From: Candidatus Thermoplasmatota archaeon
GTDB lineage: Archaea > Thermoplasmatota > SW-10-69-26 > JACQPN01 > JAJPHT01
Direction: 5' to 3'
Assembly: GCA_035540375.1 (NCBI GenBank)
Contig: DATLGO010000045.1
Location: forward strand, 1 to 50,944
DNA: 50,944 nt
In this document: positions 3,732 to 25,159 of the stretch, piece by piece
How positions within the stretch are numbered: the first letter of the stretch is position 1
How the letters are laid out: the number at the start of each line of letters is the position of its first letter
Made by a program: the position numbers and the translations under genes
The notes under the pieces: generated by a model
Told to the model about the DNA's origin: nothing
The model's input: the letters and a program-made list of their open reading frames with translations, nothing else
Databases searched by the model: none

Positions 3732-4877
3732 ATGTCCCGCGCGCTCGTCGTCGTCGTGCTGCTCGCCGCCGCCGTCGCGAGCGCGGGCTGTCTCGGCGCG
3801 AAGTCGCCCGCGGCCGGCAGGCCCATCGAGGACGTGAAGCCGCAGACGACGCCGTCCACGCCGACGGCGCCCGTCGTACCGACGCGCCCGCCGCCGGAGG
3901 AGCGGTGGCACTTCCACAACTACTGGGGCTCGACTCCCAACATCACGCTTCTCGACGGCCCCGTCTCCATCCCGCTCACGCCGCCGAAGCGCGACGCGAC
4001 GGGCGTGCGCGCGGGGGAGGTCTTCGTCGGTCTCGAGCATGGCAAGATCGTTCCGCCCGAAACCGGAGCGATCCTCGTCACGATCAACTGGAGCGCCGGC
4101 GGCTCGCTGCCCGCGCGTCTCAATCTGTCGTATCGTCCCGCGAACGCGGAGAACTTCACGAGCGTCGGCCCCGTGAAGCCCGGGAACACGACGTCCATCT
4201 TCGTGTGGGACGCGATGACGGACATCCCGCACCGCGGCCGCAGCGTCTGGACGTTCCACCTGACGGGCGAACCCGATCGCGCGGGCGGTCTCGCCATCGC
4301 GAACGGGACGGTGCGCATGAAGGTCGAAGCGTGGATCGGCCGCCCGATCTTCATCGATCCTCCGCATCTCGACCATTGGAACGGGAGCAAAACGCTCCCC
4401 GTCGTCGACCGTTCGCTTGAAGTCTCGGGGGCGAAGGTCGGCGACCGCGGCTACGCTGTCGCCGGCGAGAGCGGTCTGCAGAAGCATCTCGCCGAGTTTA
4501 GGGTGGTCGATGGCGACGTCGTCCCCGCGGGGACGAAATACGTCTACGCGCGATTGTCGTGGTCCGGCGCCTCGCCCGCAAGCGCGAAACCTCTCGCGCT
4601 CTCGTATGCCGAGGACAATGCGAACACGTCGGGCGCGCCGAAGCCCTTCGCCTCGGGCGACGACTGGCGCGCGTACCGCATCGAGGTCATTCCGCGAATG
4701 ACGGATTCCCCCTATACCAACCAGTCCACGTGGGCCTTCCGCGTCGCGATCGACCTTCCCGCCGGAGCCTTCGAAGGCGTCGTGAAGCTCCAGGCTTGGG
4801 CGACCCGGGTCGAGAGCGACGAGCCGCCCGAGGGCGTGCTGCCGAAGGCCGAGGCGCGCCGCCTTCGCGCGGGCTGA
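3732..4877 (+). CDS. Secreted lipoprotein with two tandem beta-rich domains
   Basis: A 381-residue exported protein of unknown function. Residues 1-20 are a signal peptide ending in an SAGC lipobox, so the mature N-terminal Cys is probably lipidated and membrane-anchored. A Pro/Thr-rich linker (about 30-55) follows, then two domains of similar make-up: each has an EVFVGL/AEFRVV-like strand, a TNWSAGGSLPA or RLSWSGASPAS segment, an LSY strand and a late WTFHLTGEP or WAFRVAIDLP segment. They read as diverged copies of one beta-sandwich fold. Start chosen at the ATG that opens the signal peptide; an AT-rich element (CAAATA near 3698-3704) lies about 30 bases upstream. Not recognised as a named family. 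Confidence 0.75.
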   Translation: MSRALVVVVLLAAAVASAGCLGAKSPAAGRPIEDVKPQTTPSTPTAPVVPTRPPPEERWHFHNYWGSTPNITLLDGPVSIPLTPPKRDATGVRAGEVFVGLEHGKIVPPETGAILVTINWSAGGSLPARLNLSYRPANAENFTSVGPVKPGNTTSIFVWDAMTDIPHRGRSVWTFHLTGEPDRAGGLAIANGTVRMKVEAWIGRPIFIDPPHLDHWNGSKTLPVVDRSLEVSGAKVGDRGYAVAGESGLQKHLAEFRVVDGDVVPAGTKYVYARLSWSGASPASAKPLALSYAEDNANTSGAPKPFASGDDWRAYRIEVIPRMTDSPYTNQSTWAFRVAIDLPAGAFEGVVKLQAWATRVESDEPPEGVLPKAEARRLRAG

Positions 4878-4898
4878 CAGGTACCAGACGGGTCCGCA

Positions 4899-5318
4899 GT
4901 GACGTTCCGCAAGGATTCACGTCCTTGCGGGCTTACCAGGCGACACCGCGAGGGTCTCAGCGGCCCGAGGTCGATCATCCTGGACGAACCCCAACTCCTG
5001 TCCGCGCTCAAGGAAAATGGTCTCACCGGCTACGCGTCGAAAGCGTACGTCACGCTCCTGCGCCTCAAACGCTCGAAGGTCATGCCGCTCGCCCGCATCA
5101 GCGGCATCCCCCGCAACAAGCTCTACCACGTGCTCGTCGACCTCGAAGCCGTCGGCCTCGTCGAGCGCCTTTCGGACGATCCGCTCGAGTACGCGGCGAA
5201 GCCTCTTCGACCGTACCTCGAGGCGCGCATCGTCCGGGCCCAAGCGCTTCTCGGCGCGATCGAGCGGATCCCCGTCCCCGTCACGGGCGATTCGCCGGTC
5301 GCGGCGCACGGCAACTGA
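4899..5318 (+). CDS. TrmB-like winged-helix transcriptional regulator
   Basis: A small (about 139-residue) DNA-binding protein. After a poorly conserved N-terminal ~30 residues, LLSALKENGLT...AYVTLLRL leads into a winged helix (IPRNKLYHVLVDLEAVGLV) followed by a wing and an amphipathic helix. This is the pattern of the TrmB/GntR-like archaeal HTH domain. It lacks the sugar-binding C-terminal domain of full-length TrmB. The start is uncertain: the only in-frame conventional start is GTG 4899, but homology begins near codon 30. Downstream, a GC-rich hairpin separates it from the convergent CNNM gene. Target genes unknown. Confidence 0.65.
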   Translation: MTFRKDSRPCGLTRRHREGLSGPRSIILDEPQLLSALKENGLTGYASKAYVTLLRLKRSKVMPLARISGIPRNKLYHVLVDLEAVGLVERLSDDPLEYAAKPLRPYLEARIVRAQALLGAIERIPVPVTGDSPVAAHGN

Positions 5319-5354
5319 GCGCGTCTCGTCGAAGCGACCCGCGAGGTTGGCGCC

Positions 5355-5373
5355 CCGGCCGCGACGCGGCCGG
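5355..5373. terminator. GC-rich hairpin between convergent genes
   Basis: An 8-bp perfect inverted repeat CCGGCCGC/GCGGCCGG with a 3-base loop lies in the gap between the TrmB-like gene and the convergent CNNM gene. No clear T-run follows on either strand, so a termination role is inferred from position. Confidence 0.45.
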
Positions 5374-5423
5374 TCCGTCGGCGATGCCGGCGGCGCGGTT
5401 CTCACGCATCACCGGGCGGGCCG

Positions 5424-6779
5424 TCAAGGCTCGCCCGCTTCGGGCTCCTGCTCGCCCATCGTCATCGCTGGCGACGCAGGGCGTTTGACGATGCGGACGC
5501 GAACGATGCGTCGGTTCACGACCTTCTCGACCGTCATGGTGAACCCTTCGCCCTCGATCGCTTCGCCTTCCTTCGCGAGGCGGCCGAGCTTGATGGAGAC
5601 GTAGCCCGCGACGGTCTCGTACGGCTCGTCCTCCGGAATCGAGAGGCCGAGCTTCTCGTTCACGTCGGCCACGTGCGTCCGCCCTTCCACGACGGCCGTC
5701 GACTCGTCGAGCACGCTGATCGGCTCGCGCCGGAGATCCGTCTCGTCGAAGATGTCGCCGACAATCTCCTCGAGGACGTCCTCGAGGGTCACGAGACCGG
5801 CCGTGCCGCCGAACTCGTCGATGACGATCGCCATGTGGACGCGGCGCTCGCGCAGCTCGGAGAGCAGGTCGTCGAGCTTCTTCGTCTCGGGGACGAAGTA
5901 CGCTTCCTTCATGAGATCGCGCACGTGGAGCTTGCTTCCCTTGCCTTCGAGGAGGGCGAGGAGAATCTCCTTCACGATGACGATGCCGACGACGTTGTCG
6001 ACGCTGCCCTGGTAGACGGGCAATCGGGAATAGCCGGAATCGAGCACGAACATCCGCACGTGGTCGAGCGTGGCGTCGCCGGGAACGGCGACCATGTCGG
6101 GGCGCGGGACCATGACCTCGCGCGCCGTGATGTCGCCGAACTCGATCACGGAGTGGATCATTTCCTCCTCTTCCTCCTCGAGGATGCCCTCCTCCGTTCC
6201 GAGCGTGATGAGCGTCTTGAGCTCCTCCTCCGACCGGAAACGCGATTCGCCCTCGTCCGGGTCCGTGCCCGTCGCGCGGAACGCGGCCCTCGAGACGCGC
6301 TCGAAGAGCCACACGGGCGCCGCGAGAAGGTCGACGAGGACGCGCATGGCCGGGGCGGCAAGGAGGCTCAGGCGCTCGGCGTACCGCACGGCGAAGGCCT
6401 TCGGAAGGACTTCGCCCGCGGCGACGAAGACGACGCCGGCCACGATGATGACGAGGATCTCACCCCAGGTTCCGACCGCGCCGAAGGCGGCCACGGTGGC
6501 GACCGCCGTCGCGGCGATCACGAGGAGCGTCTTCGCGGCGATGACCGCGAGCACGAAGCGGCTCGGCTTCTCGAGAAGCTTCTCGACCGCGCCGATGCGC
6601 GGGTGCTCCTCCTCGACGAGTTGGCGTCGGCGGATCTTCGAGAAACCGATGAGGGCTCCCTCGCTCGCGGCGAGGATGGCGTGGAGAAGCACGAGGGCCG
6701 CGAAGATCGCGGCGTCCGGGAGCAGCCCGCCGACGTTGACGGCGTCCAGCTGGGCGATTGCAAGGGGGGGTGTCGGCAT
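5424..6779 (-). CDS. CNNM/CorC (HlyC) family ion transporter
   Basis: A 451-residue membrane protein with the full architecture of the HlyC/CorC/CNNM family: an N-terminal DUF21 transmembrane domain (helices about 18-48, 75-100 and 105-125), a linker with EEELKTLITLGTEEG, a CBS pair (about 205-335, with motifs REVMVPRPDM and VIDEFGGTAGLVTLEDVLEE), and a C-terminal CorC_HlyC domain ending near 435. Family members move or sense Mg2+ and related divalent cations. The acidic run LEEEEEEM just ahead of the CBS pair is typical. The start codon is followed by a seven-C tract (codons 4-6), the only long homopolymer in the gene; the frame is intact here. Confidence 0.88.
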   Translation of the reverse strand: MPTPPLAIAQLDAVNVGGLLPDAAIFAALVLLHAILAASEGALIGFSKIRRRQLVEEEHPRIGAVEKLLEKPSRFVLAVIAAKTLLVIAATAVATVAAFGAVGTWGEILVIIVAGVVFVAAGEVLPKAFAVRYAERLSLLAAPAMRVLVDLLAAPVWLFERVSRAAFRATGTDPDEGESRFRSEEELKTLITLGTEEGILEEEEEEMIHSVIEFGDITAREVMVPRPDMVAVPGDATLDHVRMFVLDSGYSRLPVYQGSVDNVVGIVIVKEILLALLEGKGSKLHVRDLMKEAYFVPETKKLDDLLSELRERRVHMAIVIDEFGGTAGLVTLEDVLEEIVGDIFDETDLRREPISVLDESTAVVEGRTHVADVNEKLGLSIPEDEPYETVAGYVSIKLGRLAKEGEAIEGEGFTMTVEKVVNRRIVRVRIVKRPASPAMTMGEQEPEAGEP

Positions 6780-13592: not shown

Positions 13593-13662
13593 CGGAGGGG
13601 CGAGGGCCCTCCTATATCATGAGCCGCATGTGACCGGGCGGTCTGTGAAATCATGGCGAGGA

Positions 13663-13670
13663 TTTATATG
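13663..13670 (+). promoter_or_regulatory. TATA box of the first secreted-protein block
   Basis: TTTATATG, a strong archaeal TATA box, is centred 27 bases before the ATG at 13693. This spacing selects that ATG, and not the one at 13653 which lies upstream of the TATA box, as the start of a leaderless mRNA. Confidence 0.75.
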
Positions 13671-13692: not shown

Positions 13693-14354
13693 ATGTCCGA
13701 GGGGCGCTCGCGAATCGTCTTGGTCTTGATGGCTTTGGCTGCCCCCCCCTGCTTCAAAGCGTGACGGCCGACGGTGTTCAAGGTTGCTTCGAGCGGACGG
13801 TTCTTTCATCGTCCCAGCGAAGTGAGCGCGACGTCAGTTTCGGTCCCGTTTCCGTGGCCTGCGACGCCATGTGGGAGCAGGCGGACCAGATGATTGCTGC
13901 CGGGTCTGAGTTGTTCTGGATTCACTATCCCCATTGCACTGCTGAAACTTGCCTCGTGGGTATCAACCTCGATGGTTGGCAAGTCGCCCCGTATGACGAG
14001 GCGTTCTTTTTCCAGGATACCAAGGGTCAATGCCTGGAAAATAATAGATGCTTTTATGTTGTCAAGGCTTCCGCGGGAACATTGGGGTGGCTTGGACCCG
14101 TCAACCTGCATTGTTTGCCGGGAACTCGTACGACGTCCGTTGTGTACGCCGCCCAGTGCGTTCGTGAAGGAGTCTCAGCGGGCCCGGTAGGGGTCGATGT
14201 ATTGACCCGGCACCCCATCGACGTTCCATTCGGGGAATGTCGAGATGAGCCCGTTGTTCAGAGTGCCCGGGCCGAAGATCCTTTGACCGGCTTCTGGGTC
14301 GTCAATACCCGAACTATCACGATCAAAGTGTGCAATTTCATCAAGGTGGACTGA
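13693..14354 (+). CDS. Cys-rich secreted protein, frame interrupted at a poly-C tract
   Basis: The ATG at 13693 opens a convincing signal peptide (core IVLVLMALAAPP), but this frame ends at a TGA about 70 bases on. The rest of the protein, about 200 residues with ten or more cysteines (for example VACDAM, HCTAETC, GQCLENNRC, GECRD), continues in another frame to the stop at 14354. The two frames meet exactly at a run of eight C's (13742-13749); one extra C would join them as ...LAAPPLLQSVTADG, giving a normal signal-peptide end. Either the tract is variable or a base was missed. An ATG at 13653 also opens the second frame but lacks a signal peptide and precedes the TATA box. Function unknown. 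Confidence 0.65.
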
Positions 14355-22484: not shown

Positions 22485-22545
22485 AGGTGCCGACGTCTCG
22501 CGGGCGCCGTAGGGATCTTACAATGCTCCGCCAATAAGCTCTTGA

Positions 22546-23612
22546 ATGAGCCTGCAGTTTGGACACGTCATGGCGAGAGCTAATTTTTCGGCGGCCCGGT
22601 CATTGATTTTGTTCATAGCCCCGATGCTCATCCTGACGTCGTCCTTCTCAGGTGTCTCGGGGTCTCCCACGGTCGGCGGCCAGGTGAAACCGACCCCCAC
22701 GCCCCCCCGCCTGAGGATTCAAAGTACTTTTGTCAGCCGGAGTTTCAGAATGACTGCGCCGACGACCCGCCGCCGCCCCCGCCGGAGCGGCCACCTTACG
22801 ACGAAAACGGTAGCCGCGACCCCTGTATGACCGAACTCGAGCGGCGTGTCAGTCCGGACACCGACGGGGACGGGATCAAGGACTGCGACGACCCGGACGA
22901 CGATAACGACGGGGCGACGGACGAACTCGAGGATCACGTGTTCGGAAGGGAAAAGGCCGCGCATATTCAACGCGACCAAGATGGGGATGGAATACCTGAC
23001 CCAGAAGAGTTCTTTCCGTTGCTGCCTTCTGGCAAGGTCGCGGTTTCTATTCAGCTCCTTAATTATACGCACGATGGCAGTGGCTGCGATCCTTATCCGT
23101 GGCTGATCGAGGAGCGCGCTGACCCTTACTTCACAACGTTGCTTGTCGAGGGGCTTCCTGGAGGCGCGGTCGATCTCACAGCCGACACGGCCGTCCAGAA
23201 TGGATGGTCGAAAAACAATCACGTGGACAACCGGGCTTCAGGGCCAATGGGTCTCTCGTTCCCATTGGTCGGCCTCTCGCCCAGGATTAATGAATGGTAT
23301 GTCCTCGACCTGCCGCTCTTCATGATCGAGGCGGTTCTGATGGACCATGACGATGGCGTCTTCGACGATCAAATGGATCTGTCCCACGCAAGTGATGAGA
23401 AATTGGGTTTCAGCAATCATCGTTTGTCTTACGATCTACCACAAACGAAGTTCATGCAGGGCAACGCCTCTTGCGAGGCCAAATTGAATCTCAAGCTGTC
23501 GGACAATGTGCCCTTCAAGGAGGTCGCCATCGCGACAGCCTGGTATCACGCGAAGCTCCAGGGTAGAATAGCCACGTTGACCGATTACAAAGCCGTCTCG
23601 CCCGGTGGCTGA
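22546..23612 (+). CDS. Secreted Ca2+-repeat protein, frame interrupted at a poly-C tract
   Basis: The signal peptide (SLILFIAPMLILTSSFSG) lies in one frame from ATG 22546 (or 22570) to a seven-C run at 22702-22708. Beyond it the coding frame changes: a Cys/Pro/Asp-rich stretch (SKYFCQPEF, DCADDPPPPPE, SRDPC) leads into thrombospondin type 3-like calcium repeats (DTDGDGIKDCDDPDDDNDG and DQDGDGIPDPEE), then a ~200-residue domain of unknown fold ending at 23612. One extra C in the run restores a continuous reading frame of about 355 residues. The conventional ATG at 22827 would discard the coding-looking upstream part. A TATA-like CTTACAAT (22517-22524) lies about 26 bases before ATG 22546. Confidence 0.65.
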
Positions 23613-23655: not shown

Positions 23656-24450
23656 ATGAAGAGGACTGAAGAACGGCACGCCATACTCACCCGTCACGTG
23701 CCGAAAAATCAGCGGTCCGCACTCCGTCTTGCAGGTTGGCTCACGGCCCTCTTCTTGCTTATGGTTCCGACCACAGTTTCGGCCGGCATCGTGTATCCTC
23801 ATCCCAGAACGCACGCGGAGGCCGGGCCCGTCCAGATCGATCTCTGGATCGCGCATCCGGAGAATGGTTGGCGGACAACCGAGGAATCCAGTTCACTCAA
23901 GGGCGCTTTCCTTACGTACTATATTTCATGGCCACGCGGCCCGCCTCGACCCGGCTTCGAAATCCGCTTGATGGACGCCAGCGAGGACGTGCTCGTCGTG
24001 GACGACTCTTGGAGGGTTGAACCGGGGCGCCGGCGCGCCGCGAGCGAATGTCCTGGCGATCGATTGTGTGAAACGTACGCCTTCCGGGTTGCGCCCGGGT
24101 CGGGAGAACGTTCACGGATCATCTTGACCTTCGAACTCCTCGCCTGGGCCGATCCGGCGACGGGCCGGAAGGATTCATGGCGAGCCTCGTTCGAGGTGGT
24201 TGTGAACTTCAAGGGTGAGGGCGTGCCAAGAGGGAGCGAATGGAAGTTGTTCTCCCCCGCCGTCGAGTTGAATTCGCCGCCCACAATGAGAGCCGAGCCT
24301 GGGGCGGGTATTGCTGGGGTGGTCGCCGCCGTCCTCGTGGGAGCCGCTCGAACGGCGAAGTCGCGGTTGCGCCGCCACCGGTTGCAGGCCGCGAGCAGTC
24401 AAGGCCAGTTAGCCACGAAGCGAGATGATGAGAATGCTCCGAGGTATTAG
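23656..24450 (+). CDS. Surface protein, copy A of a tandem duplication
   Basis: A 264-residue protein with a signal peptide (hydrophobic core about 24-42, ending VSA), an ectodomain of ~160 residues and a C-terminal hydrophobic helix (GIAGVVAAVLVGA, about 222-234) followed by Arg/Lys, i.e. an anchored surface protein. It is nearly collinear with the next gene: IVYPHPRTHAEAGPV, AHPENGWRTTE, PPRPGFE, SEDVLV, RVEPGRRR, DPATGRKD, VVVNFKGEGVP and PTMRAEPGAG are shared. Two cysteines flank ECPGDRLCE and may form a disulfide. Family not recognised. The charged tail after the anchor differs from that of copy B. Confidence 0.72.
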   Translation: MKRTEERHAILTRHVPKNQRSALRLAGWLTALFLLMVPTTVSAGIVYPHPRTHAEAGPVQIDLWIAHPENGWRTTEESSSLKGAFLTYYISWPRGPPRPGFEIRLMDASEDVLVVDDSWRVEPGRRRAASECPGDRLCETYAFRVAPGSGERSRIILTFELLAWADPATGRKDSWRASFEVVVNFKGEGVPRGSEWKLFSPAVELNSPPTMRAEPGAGIAGVVAAVLVGAARTAKSRLRRHRLQAASSQGQLATKRDDENAPRY

Positions 24451-25159
24451 GTGTGTCATCATGGCGCCTTCGCGCTTCGCCATTCTCACGATCGCTGCAG
24501 GAATGTTGCTGCTGTCCCCAATCGCGGACGCGGCCATCGTCTATCCGAAGCCATATATGCATGCAGAGGCGGGCCCAGTCCATGTCGCCCTCTACGTCGC
24601 ACATCCCGAAAATGGGTGGCGAACGACTGAGACATCCAGTTCGCGTGCAGGCGCCGAGTTGTCTTCTTTCATTTCGTGGCCCCGCGATCCACCGCGTCCT
24701 GGTTTTGAATTAAAATTGACGGGCACGAGCGAGGACGTGCTTGTCACGCATGATCATTATCGGGTGGAGCCGGGTCGGCGTCGGCCTTGGGATGAGTGCC
24801 CGGGCCAGCGAGCGTGCGAGCCGTTCATTTTTCGTGTCGCGCCGGCTTCGGGTGAAACGACACGCGTAGTTCTCACGTTTGAGCTTCGAGGATGGTCGGA
24901 TCCCGCGACGGGCAGGAAAGATGCTTGGCGAACCTCCTTCGACGTGGTTGTGAATTTCAAAGGTGAGGGCGTGCCAGAAGGGAGTGAATGGAAGTTGTTT
25001 ACGCCCGCCGTCGAGTTGAAACCGCCTCCCACGATGCGAGCCGAGCCGGGGGCGGGCGTCATCGTGGGCGTCGTCGCCACGCTCATGGCGGCGTTGGTCG
25101 TTCGAACGGTGCGGAGGGTCCGTGCTTCCGGGGTCGAGAGCGGCCATTCGGGGGATTGA
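24425..25159 (+). CDS. Surface protein, copy B of the tandem duplication
   Basis: A 244-residue protein overlapping the 3' end of copy A by 26 bases. It has a signal peptide (AILTIAAGMLLLSPIADA), an ectodomain closely matching copy A, and a C-terminal helix (VIVGVVATLMAALVV) followed by arginines. The same ECPG-x3-CE cysteine pair is kept. The start may be ATG 24425 or ATG 24461; the latter puts the hydrophobic core closer to the N-terminus. Being next to an ABC-2 transporter operon, it could be a substrate or accessory part, but no sequence feature proves that. Confidence 0.72.
   Translation: MMRMLRGIRCVIMAPSRFAILTIAAGMLLLSPIADAAIVYPKPYMHAEAGPVHVALYVAHPENGWRTTETSSSRAGAELSSFISWPRDPPRPGFELKLTGTSEDVLVTHDHYRVEPGRRRPWDECPGQRACEPFIFRVAPASGETTRVVLTFELRGWSDPATGRKDAWRTSFDVVVNFKGEGVPEGSEWKLFTPAVELKPPPTMRAEPGAGVIVGVVATLMAALVVRTVRRVRASGVESGHSGD

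Follow-up and report, generated by a model that had tools for sequence, protein, structure and literature searches.

Long runs of C or G in this archaeal genome cluster at the 5' ends of genes for secreted proteins, a pattern that probably reflects some ten poly-C/G contingency loci, spread over the genome, that control secreted proteins. Some of these would switch the reading frame after a start codon or signal peptide, others would switch the spacing between a TATA box and a leaderless start, and both kinds would be helped by a NucS that is blind to small indels. For the calcium-repeat gene that starts at position 22546 of the window (the whole stretch of 50,944 nucleotides analyzed here), we lean, a little less firmly, toward the reading that it is one such simple-sequence contingency locus, a phase-variable gene sequenced in its OFF state. 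The claim for this locus is weaker than the claim for the genome, as the locus has only a C7 tract, of a class that is not enriched, in a gene with no relatives for comparison.

Two split secreted-protein genes in the window

The window belongs to contig 45 of a 110-contig draft genome of 3.13 Mb, estimated as 97% complete, with a GC content of 70%. An archaeal rRNA operon identifies the host as an archaeon, and TATA boxes ahead of start codons agree. Across upstream regions genome-wide, the TATA signal peaks 26-28 nt before start codons (range given as -24 to -28), which is the mark of leaderless archaeal transcripts. The features of the two split genes, plus one control, are as follows.

22517-22524, + strand: TATA-like box, CTTACAAT, some 25.5 nt upstream of ATG 22546, matching the genome-wide TATA peak
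22546-22830, + strand: signal-peptide ORF of 94 codons, start leaderless; past the C tract its frame differs from that of the body
22702-22708, + strand: C7 tract between signal peptide and body, presumed and likeliest site of the frame break
22709-22826, + strand: Cys/Pro/Asp-rich linker, without a start codon, readable in the body frame
22827-23612, + strand: body ORF carrying calcium repeats of DxDGDG form, putatively thrombospondin type-3-like
13663-13670, + strand: TATA-like box of the first gene (TTTATATG), 26.5 nt before ATG 13693
13693-13764, + strand: signal-peptide ORF of the first gene, MSEGRSRIVLVLMALAAPPCFKA
13742-13749, + strand: C8 tract at the end of that signal peptide
13752-14354, + strand: body of the first gene, in a different frame from its signal peptide
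6764-6770, - strand: control, C7 tract that stays in frame at codons 4-5 of the CNNM gene

Frame 1 from ATG 22546 encodes MSLQFGHVMARANFSAARSLILFIAPMLILTSSFSGVSGSPTVGGQVKPTPTPP, a signal peptide, and continues to a TGA at 22828-22830. The body lies in frame 0, which is open from 22584, following a TAA at 22581-22583, to 23612, and its codon score is 99 nats above that of noncoding sequence. Signal peptide and 300-codon body are both open and their frames differ, which is the in-frame/out-of-frame arrangement of a phase-variable gene. The first-pass annotation had described this second secreted-protein gene as split in just this manner, with the C7 tract between the two parts, and the split is borne out, as is its observation of a body-frame linker ahead of the first ATG at 22827; no ATG, GTG or TTG occurs in the body frame upstream of that codon. 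Chance placement of a TATA box and signal peptide at 22546 is unlikely, because only 18 signal-peptide starts with a matching TATA-like box occur in 4.49 Mb of strand, and the resulting estimate of about 0.001 is somewhat favorable because the hexamer list behind that count included the locus's own box.

The break probably sits at the C7 tract. Codon and amino-acid statistics assign 22709-22826 to neither frame, and ATG 22827 overlaps TGA 22828 of the upstream ORF as ATGA, so the tract is a presumed break point, and the break could sit elsewhere between about 22665 and 22827. A coding hidden Markov model (HMM), described below, made no frameshift call at 22702 or at 13742 and began the two bodies at ATG 22827 and near 13653; the evidence for a break in each gene consists of the signal peptides and the TATA positions. 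The putatively thrombospondin type-3-like body had no match in Pfam or PDB. Its calcium repeats are matched by repeat proteins of relatives, and no homologs of the part outside the repeats were found in 60 relatives or in genome or viral contigs. Beside the broken gene, at 23656-25159, are two tandem paralogous secreted genes, 64% identical, whose signal peptides are intact and whose products have a membrane anchor at the C terminus; a third copy is found on another contig (C31:15338).

The first gene of the window is broken in the same sense, as the first-pass annotation had said, but its tract is C8 rather than the C7 named there. This gene's body frame also extends upstream, uninterrupted, to an alternative ATG at 13653, a start that an automatic gene finder would pick. 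Paralogs of the body occur on contig C101 (26% identity, E about 4e-6) and contig C14 (30% identity, E about 1e-13). The paralog at C101:86160 has a C8 tract at the same place, the end of the signal peptide, and is in frame, or ON, where the gene in the window is OFF. Selection for a switch would leave just such a picture, a run held in place between strongly diverged paralogs of which one is ON and one OFF. The contig C14 paralog (C14:4815-5255; locus L021, about 4853-5700, minus strand) has no C/G tract; its leaderless signal peptide runs into a TAA in the same frame, and its body of 267 codons is intact. This copy shows that plain gene decay occurs in this genome too.

Genome-wide placement of long C/G runs

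The whole genome contains 17 C/G runs of at least 8. We defined a 5' zone as -300 to +150 around the 5' ends of genes of atypical composition with low third-position GC (GC3), and scored runs in 2.24 Mb. All six runs of at least 9 fall in such zones, where 0.14 were expected (p=1.8e-10); one pair, on contigs C17 and C24, represents paralogous copies, so these runs amount to five independent cases. Runs of 8 fall there in 4 of 11 cases, against 0.26 expected (p=9e-5). The enrichment expected of contingency loci is thus seen both for runs of at least 9 and for runs of 8. By contrast with the 10 runs of at least 8 in 5' zones, only one lies in a 3' zone. A second-order Markov null gave 2.4 runs of at least 8 and a mean of 0.64 runs of at least 9 (maximum 3 in 300), where 10 and 6 were observed. 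In the same 2.24 Mb, runs of 6 showed no enrichment at the 5' ends of atypical genes, and the C7 class, with 6 seen and 3.4 expected, showed no significant excess. A genome-wide scan, proposed by the first-pass annotation for runs near the 5' ends of secreted-protein genes, therefore shows an excess for runs of at least 8 and no significant one for C7. The other runs of 8 lie between genes, within a CRISPR spacer, or inside genes whose frame they preserve. The CRISPR array, with repeat CGGATCATCCCCGCGCAAGCGGGGAACGC, lies around position 6460 of locus L062 on contig C75, and its G8 run falls within one spacer.

The genes that bear long runs are atypical in composition, low in GC3 and mostly encode secreted proteins; such genes look laterally acquired or fast-evolving. 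In the nearest relative with a genome, which is of the same family, none of five runs of at least 9 lies at such a gene, so the pattern does not simply follow from the composition typical of this family. In that relative, an apparent frame change occurs at a C10 tract in a gene resembling universal stress proteins (locus L160, 1502-1511). In another member of the phylum (genome G010), long runs are mostly poly-glycine or intergenic. There, a C10 tract just past the signal peptide of a gene is in frame (locus L177, 285-294), a run of 79 C on contig C48 encodes poly-glycine on the opposite strand (locus L178, 1502), and glycine-rich genes contain further very long poly-G/C runs.

The sibling loci in the genome under study are as follows.

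contig C58, position 14201: C9 tract directly past ATGACT, signal peptide out of frame
contig C99, position 12451: G9 tract after the signal peptide, with the frame of the body shifted in the direction opposite to that of the pair in the window
contig C104, position 6149: C10 tract between TATA box and ATG of a signal-peptide gene
contig C76, position 1677: C11 tract between TATA box and ATG of a signal-peptide gene
contig C37, position 15160: G8 tract between TATA box and ATG of a signal-peptide gene
contigs C17 (position 1820) and C24: G9 tract just upstream of, or at, signal-peptide starts
contig C48, position 35168: G8 tract just upstream of, or at, a signal-peptide start
contig C9, position 18683: G8 tract that may mark the beginning of a gene with a signal peptide

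Members of the set are found ON as well as OFF: the C8 tract on contig C101 is in frame, and C45:13742 (the first gene of the window) and the tracts on contigs C58 and C99 are out of frame. The two genes of the window are off by the same amount, as had been noted for them, but contig C99 shows that this agreement does not extend to the set. The copies on contigs C17 and C24 (L024, 1079-1905, and L030, 18309-19121) are about 99% alike through the upstream region, the G9 tract and the signal peptide, and their secreted-gene bodies are only 47% identical at the protein level. They may be strain alleles that lie at the ends of contigs, or their bodies may have diversified in a cassette-like manner.

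In the mechanism we propose, the TATA box at about 22520 would drive leaderless transcription of the calcium-repeat gene, with the signal peptide first, and replication slippage at the C7 tract would alter run length by one. From the sequenced consensus, with the body out of frame, only a 94-residue peptide would be made, and slippage in the other direction would restore the complete secreted protein; run length is expected to vary between cells. At sibling loci the runs would act from the end of the signal peptide, from directly past the start codon, or from the interval between TATA box and start, where their length would alter promoter spacing. The benefit may be surface variation against viruses or neighbors. 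Sibling tracts of 8-11 match the hypermutable tract that such loci carry in the 5' coding region or promoter; the tract at 22702, at C7, is short and of a class that is not enriched, so this locus is the weakest case in the set, and its contingency reading is suggested by analogy with the others.

The genome encodes NucS, and no canonical MutS was found in it, the only related signal being a helix-hairpin-helix protein that partly matches MutS_V. Mycobacterial NucS leaves indels of one or two bases unrepaired, a property that the authors of that study connect with phase variation at homopolymers (PMC11551767). The archaeal NucS may, by analogy, share this blindness to indels.

Sequencing error, decay and other explanations for the breaks

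Sampled stretches of the genome were analyzed with a two-class coding HMM with frameshift states, for which training used a third-position GC filter and a second gene class was added for low-GC3 genes, and every C/G run of at least 6 was classified. In 1.86 Mb, 464 runs of 6, 75 C7 tracts and 4 C8 tracts inside genes keep the same frame on both sides; runs with differing frames on their two sides sit at gene boundaries as the HMM sees them. None of 42 frameshift calls in the 1.86 Mb falls on a run of at least 7, and no run of the same length was found to break an unrelated core gene. The 95% upper bound on per-run error is near 4%. General undercalling of poly-C is therefore not seen. The first-pass annotation had named frameshifts in core genes at C7 or longer as the sign of sequencing error, and had pointed to the CNNM gene start as a C7 tract that stays in frame; the latter is correct, and the former are absent from the stretches covered. 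Of the two shared mechanisms it had offered, contingency loci are favored by the genome-wide evidence over a common site type for undercalled bases.

The main rival is ordinary loss of function, in which an accessory secreted gene was lately inactivated by a fixed or drifting indel at or near the C7 tract, with no switching. We consider it unlikely, though it has several observations in its favor: such genes are atypical in composition and seem laterally acquired or fast-evolving, the contig C14 paralog, which has no tract, is interrupted by an in-frame stop past its signal peptide, and runs of C7 show no enrichment. Two of these weigh directly against the contingency reading, as C7 is short, being below the length of a typical contingency tract, and a paralog broken without a tract looks like ordinary decay. 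Decay does not readily account, however, for a body that apart from the break is intact over 300 codons and has a strong coding signal, for lesions just past the signal peptide rather than scattered, or for long runs that are enriched only at these 5' ends, with one ON. Next comes consensus error, a wrong run length in the assembly of a gene intact in the cell. Homopolymers are the commonest sites of indel error, both genes of the window are off in the same sense, and the genome is a draft in 110 contigs; yet the many in-gene runs of 7 and 8 that remain in frame, the in-frame C8 sibling on contig C101, the opposite direction of the break on contig C99, and promoter runs that miscounting would leave unexplained combine to make this explanation rather improbable.

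Two further explanations dispense with a lesion. The locus might be two genes, a small exported peptide at 22546-22830 and a downstream protein made from ATG 22827 by translational coupling. The overlap of TGA 22828 with ATG 22827 is a common coupling arrangement, and statistics leave the frame of the linker unassigned, but the calcium-repeat protein would then have no export signal, the Cys/Pro/Asp linker readable in the body frame would go unexplained, and siblings are split likewise without needing such an overlap; we regard this arrangement as very unlikely. Full protein could also arise from the present sequence through programmed -1 ribosomal frameshifting at the C run, or through slippage of transcription there, C homopolymers being slippery and both genes of the window needing the same direction of shift. 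The gene on contig C99 would require the opposite shift, however, and that on contig C58 a shift within a few codons of its start, while runs in promoters could not act in this way. On account of the promoter runs and the opposed directions of shift, this explanation has the lowest standing of all.

Relation to known phase-variable systems

To our knowledge, repeat-driven phase variation has been studied almost wholly in bacteria. Our full-text literature search found no report of it in archaea, and a 2025 review leaves the matter of how it is distributed among archaea to future work (PMC11868660). Bacterial homopolymer contingency loci include the poly-G genes of Campylobacter and the poly-C/G loci of Neisseria (reviewed in PMC11868660). 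The set described here resembles them in the placement of C/G runs near the 5' ends of a subset of surface or secreted genes and in the presence of both ON and OFF members within one genome. It differs in its archaeal host and leaderless TATA promoters, and it is known from one genome sequence.

Phase variation by promoter spacing is known in Neisseria porA and opc. The runs on contigs C104, C76 and C37 are similar in that they lie between a promoter element and the start, where length sets spacing, but here an archaeal TATA box stands in place of -35/-10 hexamers, and the effect of spacing is a prediction. Distal promoter repeats have been described for NadA (PMC2791445). A survey that included 18 archaeal genomes proposed homopolymeric tracts at 5' ends as a general form of prokaryotic regulation (Orsi et al. 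2010, PMC2831843). Those tracts, too, lie near gene 5' ends with phase variation proposed for them, although they are mainly poly-A/T and occur in all kinds of genes, whereas here C/G runs of at least 8 occur at secreted genes.

The mechanism itself is a known one; what is unusual is an archaeal set that has both frame and TATA-spacing forms. If the reading is true, an environmental archaeon hedges its secreted proteome by a trick of pathogens, including a promoter-spacing form that operates on archaeal TATA boxes.
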